Part shown: positions 54,264-58,133 of the stretch, in pieces | Numbering within the stretch: the first letter of the stretch is position 1 | How the letters are laid out: every line of letters begins with the position of its first letter | Assembly (NCBI RefSeq): GCF_020889705.1 | Contig: NZ_JACMYP010000006.1 | Coordinates: forward strand, 1-64,000 | Length of the DNA: 64,000 nucleotides | Direction: 5' to 3' | From: Bradyrhizobium altum | GTDB taxonomy: Bacteria > Pseudomonadota > Alphaproteobacteria > Rhizobiales > Xanthobacteraceae | Program-made: the position numbers and the translations under genes | Notes under the pieces: model-generated | Seen by the model: the letters and a program-made list of their open reading frames with translations, nothing else | Database searches by the model: none | Told to the model about the DNA's origin: nothing

Positions 54264-54935
54264 ATGTATACGCCACCGCCCTTCAAGCCTGACCGCGCCG
54301 CGAGCCTCGGCTTTGCGGAAGCGCGCGGTTTCGGCATCGCCTGCGCGTGGGACGGCGGCAAGCCGATCGCCTCCGCGCTGCCGTTCTATTTGACCTACGC
54401 CGCCGACGGCACGCCGCGGGCGCTGTTTCATGTTGCCCGTCACAATCCGCTGGTAAAGCTGGCGCACGCGGGCCCTTGGCTGCTGGCCGTCACCGGCGCG
54501 GATGCCTATGTGTCGCCGGACTGGTATGTGTCGCCCGATCAGGTGCCGACCTGGCTCTATCAGGCCGTGCATCTGACCGGGCCGGTGCGGACCCTGTCGG
54601 ACGAGGAACTTGCGGTTCAGATCGACGCGCTGAGCGCCAAGTTCGAGGACCGGCTGCTGCCGAAGAAGCCGTGGGTGTCGGGCAAGATGACCGCCGCGCG
54701 GCTGGAAGCAATGAAGAAGGCCATCGTGGGCCTCGAGATGATGGTGGAAGAGGTGGAGGGCAGTTTCAAGCTGAACCAGCACAAGTCTGAAACCGATTTC
54801 GCGGCGGTCGGCAACACGCTCGCATTACAGGCCGAAGCCGGTGCCCGGGACATCGCGGCTTTGATGCGCGAGGTGCGCCCGCAGGCTTTCGCGATGATAC
54901 AGGCCGAGATGACTACGCTTCCGAGGAGCGAGTAA
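54264..54935 (+). CDS. FMN-binding PaiB-like protein
   Basis: A 223-residue protein of the PaiB / FMN-binding split-barrel family. It starts MYTPPPFKPD, typical of the family, and has ALFHVARHNPLVK, AYVSPDWYVSPDQVPTWLYQAVHLTG (the FMN/pyridoxamine-oxidase-like core), and MVEEVEGSFKLNQHKSETD. PaiB in Bacillus affects protease and sporulation genes, but relatives are mostly uncharacterised and may be enzymes or haem/flavin binders. The stop overlaps the argC start (TAATG), so translation is coupled to arginine biosynthesis. Confidence 0.88.
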   Translation: MYTPPPFKPDRAASLGFAEARGFGIACAWDGGKPIASALPFYLTYAADGTPRALFHVARHNPLVKLAHAGPWLLAVTGADAYVSPDWYVSPDQVPTWLYQAVHLTGPVRTLSDEELAVQIDALSAKFEDRLLPKKPWVSGKMTAARLEAMKKAIVGLEMMVEEVEGSFKLNQHKSETDFAAVGNTLALQAEAGARDIAALMREVRPQAFAMIQAEMTTLPRSE

Positions 54936-55981
54936 TGACGAAGAAGAAAATCGGAATTTTGGGCGCGTCCGGCTACACCGGCGCCGACGCGGTGCGCCTG
55001 TTGGCGCGACACCCGAATGCCGAAATCACCGCGCTTACCGCCAACACCCATGCCGGCAAGGCGATGAGCGAGGTGTTTCCGCACTTCTTCATGCTCGACC
55101 TGCCAAAACTCGTGGAATGGGAAAAAGTCGACTGGACGCGGCTCGATGCCGCGTTCTGCGGACTGCCGCATGGGACGACGCAGGAGATCATCGCCGCGGT
55201 GCTGAAAGCCAATCCCAGAATCAAGATCCTCGATATGTCCGCGGATTTCCGGCTGCGCAACAAAGACAGCTACGCGCAATGGTACGGCCATGAGCACCGG
55301 GCGCTCGAATTGCAGGACGAGGCCGTCTATGGGCTGACCGAACTCTACCGGGAGAAGGTCACGGCCGCGCGGCTGGTGGCCTGTCCCGGCTGCTATCCGA
55401 CGGCGGTGCTGCTGGCGCTTGTTCCGCTGGCGAAGGCAAAGCTGATTGACGTCGACGATATCGTCATCGACGCAAAGTCGGGCGTCACCGGCGCCGGACG
55501 CGGACTGAAGCAGAACACGCTGTTCAGCGAGGCCGGCGAAGGGTTGTCGCCCTATTCGATCGGAAGCCATCGACACTCGGCGGAGATCGAGCAGGAGATC
55601 GGCGCAGCCGCTGGCTCGGCTGTGACAGTGAACTTCACCCCGCATCTCATTCCGATGGCGCGGGGTGAGTTCTGCACATCTTATGTCAAGCTCAACGGGG
55701 CTACGCCCGACGATTTGCGCGCCGAGCTGGAAAAGGCCTACGCCAACGAGCCGTTCGTATATGTGACGAAGAAGGGCGTGCTACCACAGACGCAGAACGT
55801 GCGCGGTTCGAATTACGTTCAGATCGGCGTCGTCGCCGACCGGATCAAGAACCGCGCCATCGTGCTCTCGACGCTCGATAATCTTGTGAAGGGGTCGGCC
55901 GGACAGGCGATCCAGAATATGAACCTGATGTTCGGCTTGCCCGAAACCACCGGGCTGGAGCAGATCGCGCTGTTTCCGTGA
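54935..55981 (+). CDS. argC: N-acetyl-gamma-glutamyl-phosphate reductase, type 1
   Basis: NADPH-dependent reductase for the third step of arginine synthesis, 348 residues, the length of type 1 enzymes. It has the nucleotide motif IGILGASGYTGADAVRLLARHP, FCGLPHGTTQEI, DMSADFRLRNKDSY, and the catalytic Cys153 in VACPGCYPTAVLLAL. The C-terminal domain has VNFTPHLIPMARGEFCTSYV and the His for catalysis. It overlaps the PaiB-like gene by one base. A second, different argC starts 121 bp later. Confidence 0.96.
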   Translation: MTKKKIGILGASGYTGADAVRLLARHPNAEITALTANTHAGKAMSEVFPHFFMLDLPKLVEWEKVDWTRLDAAFCGLPHGTTQEIIAAVLKANPRIKILDMSADFRLRNKDSYAQWYGHEHRALELQDEAVYGLTELYREKVTAARLVACPGCYPTAVLLALVPLAKAKLIDVDDIVIDAKSGVTGAGRGLKQNTLFSEAGEGLSPYSIGSHRHSAEIEQEIGAAAGSAVTVNFTPHLIPMARGEFCTSYVKLNGATPDDLRAELEKAYANEPFVYVTKKGVLPQTQNVRGSNYVQIGVVADRIKNRAIVLSTLDNLVKGSAGQAIQNMNLMFGLPETTGLEQIALFP

Positions 55982-56102
55982 GCGGGGGTTGTTGTCGTGG
56001 ACCAGGATGCGCTCAATCTAGGGATAACAGCCCCGGATCGGCAGCGGAGGTGCGGCCAGACGTGTTAGCAAACGAAACGAACGAGCTCGAAAGGAGCATG
56101 TC

Positions 56103-57083
56103 ATGACCGTCACCGATACCAACCAGCCGAAAGCCAACAGCGGTGCGATCAAGGCCACCGTGTTCGTAGACGGGGCGTCCGGCACCACCGGCCTCGGCAT
56201 CCAAGAGCGGCTGCACTCCATTGGTGACGTCGCGGTGAAGCACATCGCCGACGACAAGCGGAAGGACGCAGGCGCCAAGCGTGCGCTGATGGAGCAGGTG
56301 GATCTCGTGATCCTCTGCCTGCCCGACGAGGCCGCCAAGGAGACCGTCGCGTTGATCGACACGATGGGCAATTCGGCGCCGAAGGTGCTCGATGCGTCGA
56401 CCGCCTATCGCGTCGCGCCCGACTGGGCCTACGGTTTCGCCGAGCTCGCGCCCGACCAGGCCGACAAGATCCGCAATGCGCAGAAGGTCTCCAATCCGGG
56501 CTGCTATCCGACCGGTGCGATCGCGCTGCTGCGGCCGATCGTCGATGCCGGCCTGCTGCCCGCGGACTATCCCGTCACCGTCAACGCGGTGAGCGGCTAT
56601 TCGGGCGGCGGCAAGTCGATGATCGCGAGCTTCGAGGACGGCTCGGCGCCGGCCTTCGAGCTCTATGGCCTCGGCTTCGAGCACAAGCACGTGCCGGAGA
56701 TGCAGCTTTACTCGCATCTGACGCGGCGGCCGATCTTCATCCCGTCGGTCGGCAACTACCGGCAGGGCATGCTGGTCTCGGTACCGCTGCAGCTCGACAC
56801 GTTGCCGGGCAAGCCGACCGGCGCCGACCTGCAGGCTGTTCTGGCGAAGTGGTATGCCGGCAGCAAACACGTCTCGGCGATGCCGCTGCAAAACGAAGCG
56901 GCGAAGGGCGGCCGGATCGAGCCGGAGGCGCTCAATGAGACCAACCAGCTCGAGCTTTATGTGTTCGCCAGCGACAAGCATCGCCAGGCGGTGCTGGTTG
57001 CCCGGCTCGACAATCTGGGCAAGGGCGCCTCGGGCGCCGCGGTGCAGAACATGCGGCTGATGCTCGGGCTGGCCGACGGCTGA
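56103..57083 (+). CDS. argC: N-acetyl-gamma-glutamyl-phosphate reductase, type 2
   Basis: The shorter type 2 form of ArgC, 326 residues. It has FVDGASGTTGLGIQERL as nucleotide site, LDASTAYRVAPDWAYG, the catalytic Cys134 in VSNPGCYPTGAIALL, and AVSGYSGGGKSMI. The catalytic Cys region aligns with type 1, but most of the sequence does not, so this is not a recent duplicate. The start at 56103 follows AAAGGAG. Either enzyme could serve arginine synthesis; one may have another acyl-phosphate substrate. Confidence 0.95.
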   Translation: MTVTDTNQPKANSGAIKATVFVDGASGTTGLGIQERLHSIGDVAVKHIADDKRKDAGAKRALMEQVDLVILCLPDEAAKETVALIDTMGNSAPKVLDASTAYRVAPDWAYGFAELAPDQADKIRNAQKVSNPGCYPTGAIALLRPIVDAGLLPADYPVTVNAVSGYSGGGKSMIASFEDGSAPAFELYGLGFEHKHVPEMQLYSHLTRRPIFIPSVGNYRQGMLVSVPLQLDTLPGKPTGADLQAVLAKWYAGSKHVSAMPLQNEAAKGGRIEPEALNETNQLELYVFASDKHRQAVLVARLDNLGKGASGAAVQNMRLMLGLADG

Positions 57084-57099: not shown

Positions 57100-57693
57100 G
57101 TGGACGACGCCACGCTGCAATTCTACCGGCGCAATGCCGAGGCCTATGCCGGGTGGGCGAAAGCACCGTCCGCCCGGCTGACAGGTTTTCTCAAGCTGCT
57201 GCCGCCAGGAGGCGCGATCCTCGAACTCGGCTGCGGTGCCGGCAATCATGCCGCGGTCATGCTCGCCGAAGGCTTCGTGCTGCGCGCGACCGACGGCTCA
57301 CCCGAGATGGCTGACGTCGCGGCGCGCCGCATCAACCATCCCGTTGAGGCGATGCTGTTCGATGAGCTCGAGGATCGTGGGGCTTATGACGGCGTCTGGG
57401 CCAGCGCCTGCCTGCTGCATGTGCCGCGCGACGAACTGGTCGGCATCCTCGGCCGCATCCATCGGGCGCTGAAACCCGGCGGCATCTTCTACGCGAGCTA
57501 CAAGATCGGCCATGGCGATGGCCGCGACAGCATCGGCCGCTACTACAATTATCCCGCGACCGACTGGCTGGCGGCGACCTACGCCGAGTCCGGGGCGTGG
57601 ACCCAAGTCTCGTCCGACACCGGCGAGATCAAGAGTTTCGACGAGGCGCCGGCGACGATGCTGCACATCGTGGTGCGCAAGGGCGAGGAATAG
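57100..57693 (+). CDS. SAM-dependent methyltransferase, class I
   Basis: Small methyltransferase of 197 residues. The SAM-binding motif I is ILELGCGAGNHAAVMLAEG, with ATDGSPEMADVA as the acidic second motif, YDGVWASACLLHVPRDEL as motif post-II and ALKPGGIFYASYK as motif III. The GTG start at 57100 is 16 bp after argC type 2, so it is probably in the same operon. The substrate is unknown. Confidence 0.9.
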   Translation: MDDATLQFYRRNAEAYAGWAKAPSARLTGFLKLLPPGGAILELGCGAGNHAAVMLAEGFVLRATDGSPEMADVAARRINHPVEAMLFDELEDRGAYDGVWASACLLHVPRDELVGILGRIHRALKPGGIFYASYKIGHGDGRDSIGRYYNYPATDWLAATYAESGAWTQVSSDTGEIKSFDEAPATMLHIVVRKGEE

Positions 57694-57734: not shown

Positions 57735-58133
57735 TCAGACGATCTTGAAGATCGCGAGCGCCAGCACCGCCTGGGCGATGAAACCGACCGTGAAGGCCAG
57801 GGTGCGGAACACCGGCAGGCCGAGCGTGTAGACGATCAGATGCGCGACGCGGGCCCAGAAGTAGACGGCGCAGGCCAGCACGGTCCATTTGGTGGAATAG
57901 TCGGCCGCGTTCAGGATCAAGACCAGCGGCGCGAAGATCACGAGATTCTCGACCGCGTTGTCGTGGGCGAACATCAGCCGGTTGGCCCATTCCGCATGCG
58001 GCTTGTCGGTGCGCGAGGGATTGCCCATGGCGCCGGAGAGGCCGCGCACCTGGCAGCGGTTGATGATGTAGGGAATCCACAGCAGCCCGGTCAGGATCAC
58101 CGTCAGCGACAGCCAGAACAGTTCGCGCGTCAT
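57735..58133 (-). CDS. MAPEG family membrane protein
   Basis: Four-helix membrane protein of 132 residues in the MAPEG family (microsomal GST / leukotriene synthase type). It has helix 1 LSLTVILTGLLWIPYI, then a loop with NPSRTDKPHAEWANRLMFAHDNAVENLVIFAPLVL (the N-xx-E core), and WARVAHLIVYTLGLPVFRTLAFTVGF. Function in bacteria is mostly unknown; membrane glutathione chemistry is possible. It converges with the methyltransferase gene. Confidence 0.88.
   Translation of the reverse strand: MTRELFWLSLTVILTGLLWIPYIINRCQVRGLSGAMGNPSRTDKPHAEWANRLMFAHDNAVENLVIFAPLVLILNAADYSTKWTVLACAVYFWARVAHLIVYTLGLPVFRTLAFTVGFIAQAVLALAIFKIV

Follow-up and report, generated by a model that had tools for sequence, protein, structure and literature searches.

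A probably foreign type 1 argC beside the resident type 2 argC of a Bradyrhizobium locus: probable in situ gene displacement at a two-gene stage

The first 64,000 nucleotides of contig NZ_JACMYP010000006.1 of Bradyrhizobium altum (assembly GCF_020889705.1; hereafter the window) carry two forms of argC, the gene for N-acetyl-gamma-glutamyl-phosphate reductase, directly one after the other, which raises the question of how the locus came to hold both and what the second copy does. The initial annotation suggested that one of them may have moved in, and that it may serve a different acyl phosphate. Here we find that the window very probably represents xenologous gene displacement in situ at the two-gene stage, in which type 2 argC is the resident and type 1 argC is the newcomer. 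The reaction is most likely the same for the two enzymes, namely the NADPH-dependent reduction of N-acetylglutamyl phosphate.

Both genes are intact, lie side by side with exactly the boundaries first assigned to them and keep the catalytic Cys. The type 1 protein matches the NCBIfam model TIGR01850 (argC) with 414.7 bits over residues 5–348 (curated cut-off 233.6), and the type 2 protein matches TIGR01851 (argC_other) with 416.8 bits over residues 18–323 (curated cut-off 229.85). The motif PGCYPT (Cys153 in type 1 and Cys134 in type 2) and an HxH motif are present in both proteins, and their Cys and His are presumably the catalytic residues of ArgC. PGCYPT and HxH occur in all 61 Bradyrhizobium type 1 proteins longer than 300 aa, and the Cys and His motifs in all 81 type 2 proteins of that length, the divergent copies of genomes G499 and G531 (loci L138 and L140) being set aside. 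The two window proteins share 27% identity over 291 columns, which indicates distant homologues rather than unrelated enzymes, and the C-terminal Pfam domain PF22698 is common to both. A search of the same genome with TIGR01850 returned type 1 (E 1.2e-123) and type 2 (E 6.5e-39), the next among the matches listed having an E of 1.9e-18. The type 1 start codon overlaps the stop codon of the upstream gene, which encodes a flavin mononucleotide (FMN)-binding protein (TAATG), and is preceded by a Shine-Dalgarno-like GAGGAG at 54923–54928; a corresponding GAAAGGAGC lies upstream of type 2 at 56090–56098. A promoter and terminator scan returned none between the two genes, in a region with fewer sites than shuffled sequences gave, and is uninformative here.

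The pair occupies a slot that is shared across the genus. The gene order in the window is parE, DedA, a metallo-beta-lactamase (MBL) gene, the FMN-binding gene, type 1 argC, type 2 argC, a methyltransferase gene, a gene that we take to be MAPEG-like, and phaC (Table 1). We compared 80 of 108 planned genus regions, which include 32 of the 60 genomes with type 2 only; named loci whose type 1 DNA was identical to that of a compared genome were dropped. In 72 of these 80 loci argC lies between an FMN-binding gene on its left and the methyltransferase or MAPEG-like gene on its right, whichever type of argC is present, which places the newcomer at the resident's own locus with the flanks conserved. 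The eight exceptions comprise contig ends (both loci of G452 and the type 1 locus of G480), copies located elsewhere (L137, L138 and L140), one locus without the right flank (L139) and one without a detected FMN-binding gene (L166).

Constant pairing across the genus, which had been named in advance as a sign against transfer, was not found. Among 107 genomes, 60 carry type 2 only, 10 carry type 1 only, and 31 carry an adjacent pair, with type 1 first in 12 and type 2 first in 19. Both types are present but apart in four genomes, and neither was found in two (G525, and G530, which is 75% complete). Of these, G452 appears to be a pair divided between contigs, and in G499 and G531, of the same class, the type 1 match is a divergent ArgC elsewhere in the genome. 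This census fits the expectation that one form normally suffices, and the resident has been lost from 10 of the 107 genomes, though not from the window itself. Among 149 sampled family genomes, type 2 is above the cut-off in 32, and at least four have both types among the matches listed (adjacent in G000, G122 and G107, far apart in G095). The two forms are therefore mostly mutually exclusive in the family sample yet often paired in Bradyrhizobium. In G107, which belongs to another genus of the family, type 2 lies between the FMN-binding gene and a family-type type 1 in the same slot (L272), apparently an independent pairing that involves another type 1. A second ArgC-like frame of 327 aa was also noticed in a genome from another genus of the family (G013:C1:1130807-1131532).

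The two genes differ sharply in how their pairwise synonymous divergence (dS) relates to that of the unlinked rpoB. Across 75 genomes, type 2 follows rpoB with a Spearman rho of 0.82 (2016 pairs), in contrast to a rho of 0.28 for type 1 (820 pairs), and the four flanking genes give values of 0.69–0.87. In the 435 pairs in which both genomes carry both genes, rho is 0.38 for type 1 and 0.80 for type 2, and in a 60-genome subset it is 0.28 and 0.83, respectively. Only copies aligned over at least 90% were used (41 genomes for type 1 and 64 for type 2), which excluded badly frameshifted type 1 genes such as that of G538. The rpoB tree covers 75 of 79 genomes, two without a match and two with partial genes being excluded, and G511 and G459 are represented by their longest piece. 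Because its synonymous divergence follows unlinked rpoB, we regard type 2 as the resident. Individual comparisons illustrate the difference: G475 (type 1 first) and G491 (type 2 first) are separated by a dS of 0.094 in rpoB, 0.214 in type 2 and 0.547 in type 1, and their type 1 copies flank type 2 on opposite sides, whereas G523 and G454 present the reverse case (0.112 in type 1 and 0.378 in type 2). Between the clade to which the window belongs and the sister-lineage locus L181, type 1 has a dS of 0.77, compared with medians of 0.27–0.43 for type 2 and the flanking genes between this clade and three sister loci (L146, L172 and L181). Approximately unbiased (AU) tests rejected type 1 clades that follow the backbone tree, from which L134, L136, L137, L138 and L140 are excluded (p = 0.029 and 0.026, for groups named after the dS values had been seen). 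The phylogeny of each copy, proposed at the outset as a check, is thus discordant with the host for type 1 and concordant for type 2, the pattern of displacement, and the suggestion that one copy had moved in is borne out with type 1 as the mover.

The assignment of type 1 as the mover follows from its rho of 0.28 and from its place in an ArgC clade to which none of the 22 other family members compared belongs. In a FastTree phylogeny of 131 type 1 proteins, which includes frameshifted sequences with out-of-frame ends, the 60 slot-type Bradyrhizobium proteins form one clade that is joined by G027 (79% identity), a Reyranella metagenome-assembled genome (MAG; 83%) and an Afifellaceae MAG (72%). 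A separate clade, with 53–59% identity to the window type 1, is formed by the other 22 type 1 proteins of the family, and among 385 genomes sampled from the class the top hit from another genus reaches 67%. These clades and identities place the donor lineage of type 1 outside the usual type 1 of the family. The G+C content of type 1 is 61.2% versus 64.8% for the window, and its G+C fraction at third codon positions is 0.797 versus 0.82–0.88 for type 2 and four neighbours, which is suggestive only. The Reyranella match lies on a MAG contig of 3.5 kb (L205) and is either a near-donor or mis-binned. Far off in the same tree are the divergent copies of G499 (L138:5995-6969) and G531 (L140), a third ArgC-like protein outside the slot with 38% identity to type 1 and the motif NPGCFPA. 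In G499 it adjoins lysA and argH, where the argH match begins only at residue 301 of a 759-codon frame with a putative start.

The boundaries of the exchanged segment can still be read in the DNA. In genomes with type 2 only, the FMN-binding gene runs into type 2. We calculated the mean identity of this gene in 30-base windows between ten genomes of the window's clade and the type 2-only sister G504. The identity is 0.92–0.95 in windows starting at 54717–54762, falls to 0.85 at 54777 and 0.65 at 54792, and stays at 0.47–0.72 from there to the gene end, compared with 0.77–0.97 between the type 2-only genomes G504 and G439 over the same last stretch. The same drop is present in type 1-first genomes of a second group, labelled here japonicum-like after one of its records, in four pairs (three against type 2-only genomes and one against a type 2-first neighbour). 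Identity of the FMN 3´ end to the nearest type 2-only neighbour is below 0.75 in all 15 type 1-first and all 14 type 1-only genomes.

The scar between the two genes holds the counterpart of this breakpoint. The 54 bases directly before type 2 are a decayed copy of the resident FMN tail, which scores 63 against the leaders of type 2-only genomes, compared with a shuffled mean of 19.4 and a score of 23 against type-1-type tails. In a survey of 45 tandem spacers, a type-2-type tail was detected in all 16 spacers with type 1 first (scores 49–83; type-1-type 17–33; shuffled means 16.5–20.6), and a type-1-type tail in 23 of the 29 with type 2 first (score of at least 28 and above the type-2-type score). 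The start of the methyltransferase gene is found in 15 of these 29 (scores 35–69; no shuffle above 29) and, with scores of 31–36, in 5 of the 16 spacers with type 1 first, most others of which are at or near chance. The simplest reading is that units composed of an FMN tail, argC and a methyltransferase start were set side by side by recombination, with later erosion of the inner junction. Since the tail also holds the argC ribosome-binding site, selection may help to preserve it.

We infer the following course of events, including the direction of travel. The resident argC of this Bradyrhizobium locus would be type 2, inherited with its flanks, and a foreign type 1 would have entered by recombination on a piece that carried the tail of an FMN-binding gene, type 1 argC and possibly the opening bases of a methyltransferase gene. 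The joint would lie inside the last ~130–160 bases of the resident FMN-binding gene, whose original tail would have been left as a relic before type 2. Invasion of the slot probably happened repeatedly in the genus, both upstream and downstream of type 2, and the pair may afterwards persist, as in the window's clade, or lose the newcomer or the resident.

Both genes are under purifying selection in the pair, and neither is visibly relaxed. All 11 genomes examined in the window's clade have full-length frames of both types, ten genomes besides our own showing type 1 before type 2 at the same place. The ratio of nonsynonymous to synonymous divergence (dN/dS) in this clade is 0.080 for type 1 and 0.101 for type 2, compared with 0.085 for phaC, 0.088 for the MAPEG-like gene and 0.026 for parE. 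In the japonicum-like group, dN/dS of type 2 is 0.111 alone and 0.107–0.112 in pairs; in another group, that of type 1 is 0.068 alone and 0.063 in pairs. A frameshift interrupts type 1 in three of the 31 genomes with a pair (G538, G458 and G468); a single frameshift in an assembly may be an error. Fragments from the 3´ end of a second, truncated type 2 were noticed downstream of type 1 in G449 (L107:6317-6553) and G502 (L118:6302-6481), and in G449 a methyltransferase fragment lies between type 1 and the type 2 piece.

An outside origin of type 1 and selection on both copies in tandem are also what one would see if type 1 served another acyl phosphate, as a LysY-like or special-product enzyme, and type 2 alone made arginine. 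This explanation is very unlikely, as type 1 is the only ArgC in 10 of the 107 genomes and all ten keep argB and argJ. Overall, argB is present in 17 of 17 genomes tested (the ten with type 1 only, four with type 2 only and three tandem), argJ in 18 of 18 (the same 17 and G027), and argH passes its cut-off in 16 of 17, all except G442 (93% complete). Because all ten type 1-only and the four tested type 2-only genomes retain argB and argJ, either form probably suffices for arginine, and, from gene content, each seems to act as the sole ArgC in some genomes of the genus. LysW was found in none of six genomes at E 0.001, in a search that matched in 4 of 14 controls. Among solved chains, type 1 is best matched by 1xyg (408 bits), presumably a plant ArgC, which lies far above 5ein and 5eio (157–161 bits), chains named glutamyl/aminoadipyl-phosphate reductase that we take to be LysY. 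The ten best solved chains for type 2 are ArgC or semialdehyde dehydrogenase by name (E 8e-20 to 4e-16). The high score of type 1 against the ArgC model and its equal constraint alone and beside type 2, in the one group compared, point the same way, and the LysY-like or other product-specific role put forward in the initial annotation was rejected on the retention of argB and argJ, the LysW result and the chain scores. The evidence on slot, divergence, scar and gene content therefore favours displacement over a LysY-like enzyme.

That the pair is ancestral in the genus, with the single states produced by differential loss and no transfer within the genus, would agree with the occurrence of both orders and with the partial clustering of type 1 on the rpoB tree. 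We consider it very improbable, and disfavour it, given that dS of type 2 keeps in step with rpoB and that of type 1 does not, that type 1 exceeds the other genes in its dS to the sister lineage, that the AU tests go against it and that the breakpoint in the FMN-binding gene is abrupt. An assembly or contamination artefact is hardly conceivable: although our assembly has 613 contigs and 2.8% contamination, the pair lies on an 89-kb contig, its order is the same in the ten other clade genomes, and independent assemblies such as G440 (contig of 9.25 Mb) have the same arrangement. A possibility that would add to the displacement history, and that we hold to be improbable though worth keeping in mind, is that the two enzymes are both needed as a specialised pair, with differences in their regulation, inhibitor sensitivity or use of cofactors. 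The persistence of full-length frames at dN/dS of 0.08 and 0.10 in 11 genomes and of pairs in 31 of 107 speaks for it, whereas the 60 genomes with type 2 alone, the 10 with type 1 alone, the three frameshifted type 1 copies and the similar constraint in single and paired states speak against it. A selective reason for the persistence of the pair is possible. More speculatively, and with rather little confidence, the slot might be a target-swapping locus in which recurrent import of type 1, on either side of type 2 and with both copies long retained, is selected by an agent that discriminates between the enzymes, so that an essential biosynthetic step would behave like a balanced polymorphism; such an agent could be an antimetabolite, some stress or a condition in the nodule. 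We know of no antagonist for argC.

Several observations weigh against the displacement reading. The minimum number of changes on the rpoB tree of 75 genomes is 16 for type 1 presence and 5 for type 2 presence, compared with means of 24.6 (minimum 18) and 9.5 (minimum 5) in 200 shuffles; type 1 is thus more clustered than random, which indicates that it was partly inherited and partly exchanged, rather than always fresh. In the type 1 tree, a weakly supported branch (76/70) has all copies with type 1 first on the same side, which makes the count of separate insertions uncertain, and the rpoB reference is a single gene. The FMN-tail control is noisy, with identity below 0.75 also in 12 of 35 type 2-only and 7 of 30 type 2-first genomes, and 6 of the 29 spacers with type 2 first (17–32 bases) have no clear tail. 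In the window itself, the trace of the methyltransferase gene is weak, scoring 26 where the highest of 10 shuffles scored 24. That both copies are kept under purifying selection may point to non-redundant roles.

Table 1. Features of the argC slot and its borders in the window
Feature	Coordinates	Strand	Evidence
FMN_bind_2 gene, left slot border	54264..54935	+	Pfam PF04299, 133.9 bits; last ~130–160 bases of other ancestry (from ~54777–54807)
Type 1 argC, probable incoming xenolog	54935..55981	+	348 aa; TIGR01850, Cys153, dS versus rpoB, foreign ArgC clade
Scar between type 1 and type 2	55982..56102	.	Sequence; scored against shuffles
Possible 5´ relic of methyltransferase gene	55996..56013	+	16/18 bases match; weak in own genome
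Decayed copy of resident FMN 3´ tail	56044..56097	+	Alignment; score 63 versus type 2-only leaders
Type 2 argC, resident	56103..57083	+	326 aa; TIGR01851, Cys134, dS in step with rpoB
Methyltransferase-domain gene, right slot border	57100..57693	+	PF13649, 50.9 bits; synteny
Conserved right-flank gene, MAPEG-like (name assumed)	57735..58133	-	Synteny; no NCBIfam match

That a distant homologue has replaced a biosynthetic gene is usually deduced once the exchange is complete, and at this locus the stages, the broken copies, the scar and the breakpoint are readable. How a cell gets through a two-gene stage, and whether chance or selection decides the outcome, become testable questions, and the stages found in relatives offer a way to study the swap of an essential gene. 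The case also cautions that a second, seemingly redundant argC need not imply a new substrate.

The in situ form of xenologous gene displacement, reportedly described by Omelchenko and colleagues in 2003, resembles the present case in that the resident gives way to a foreign homologue, which in Bradyrhizobium takes up the resident's own chromosomal position. The term xenologous gene displacement is used in PMC1274311. What differs is that a single genus holds the resident, the newcomer, both in either order, and the newcomer alone, together with recombination scars, and because these states coexist the steps of displacement become visible. An argC ortholog replacement in Sinorhizobium meliloti was reportedly carried out by Diaz and colleagues in 2011. 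As discussed in PMC3198989, Rhizobiales argC stand-ins functioned to different degrees in S. meliloti; that swap is a laboratory exchange of orthologs, whereas Bradyrhizobium holds two distant types in one natural slot. The type VI effector-immunity locus of Vibrio cholerae, as described in PMC5361080, undergoes frequent homologous recombination, and acquired units are added there beside residents with the older genes kept, as in our pair; in contrast to argC, a housekeeping biosynthetic gene, the Vibrio locus experiences antagonistic selection. The two window proteins belong clearly to the families TIGR01850 and TIGR01851, respectively, which here stand adjacent. Among the literature matches listed, no title dealt with argC displacement, or with argC of two types, in Bradyrhizobium. 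The process is of a known kind, and what is unusual is that many of its stages are found at one slot in one genus, with insertion on both sides of the resident, a readable scar and lasting co-retention of the two genes.

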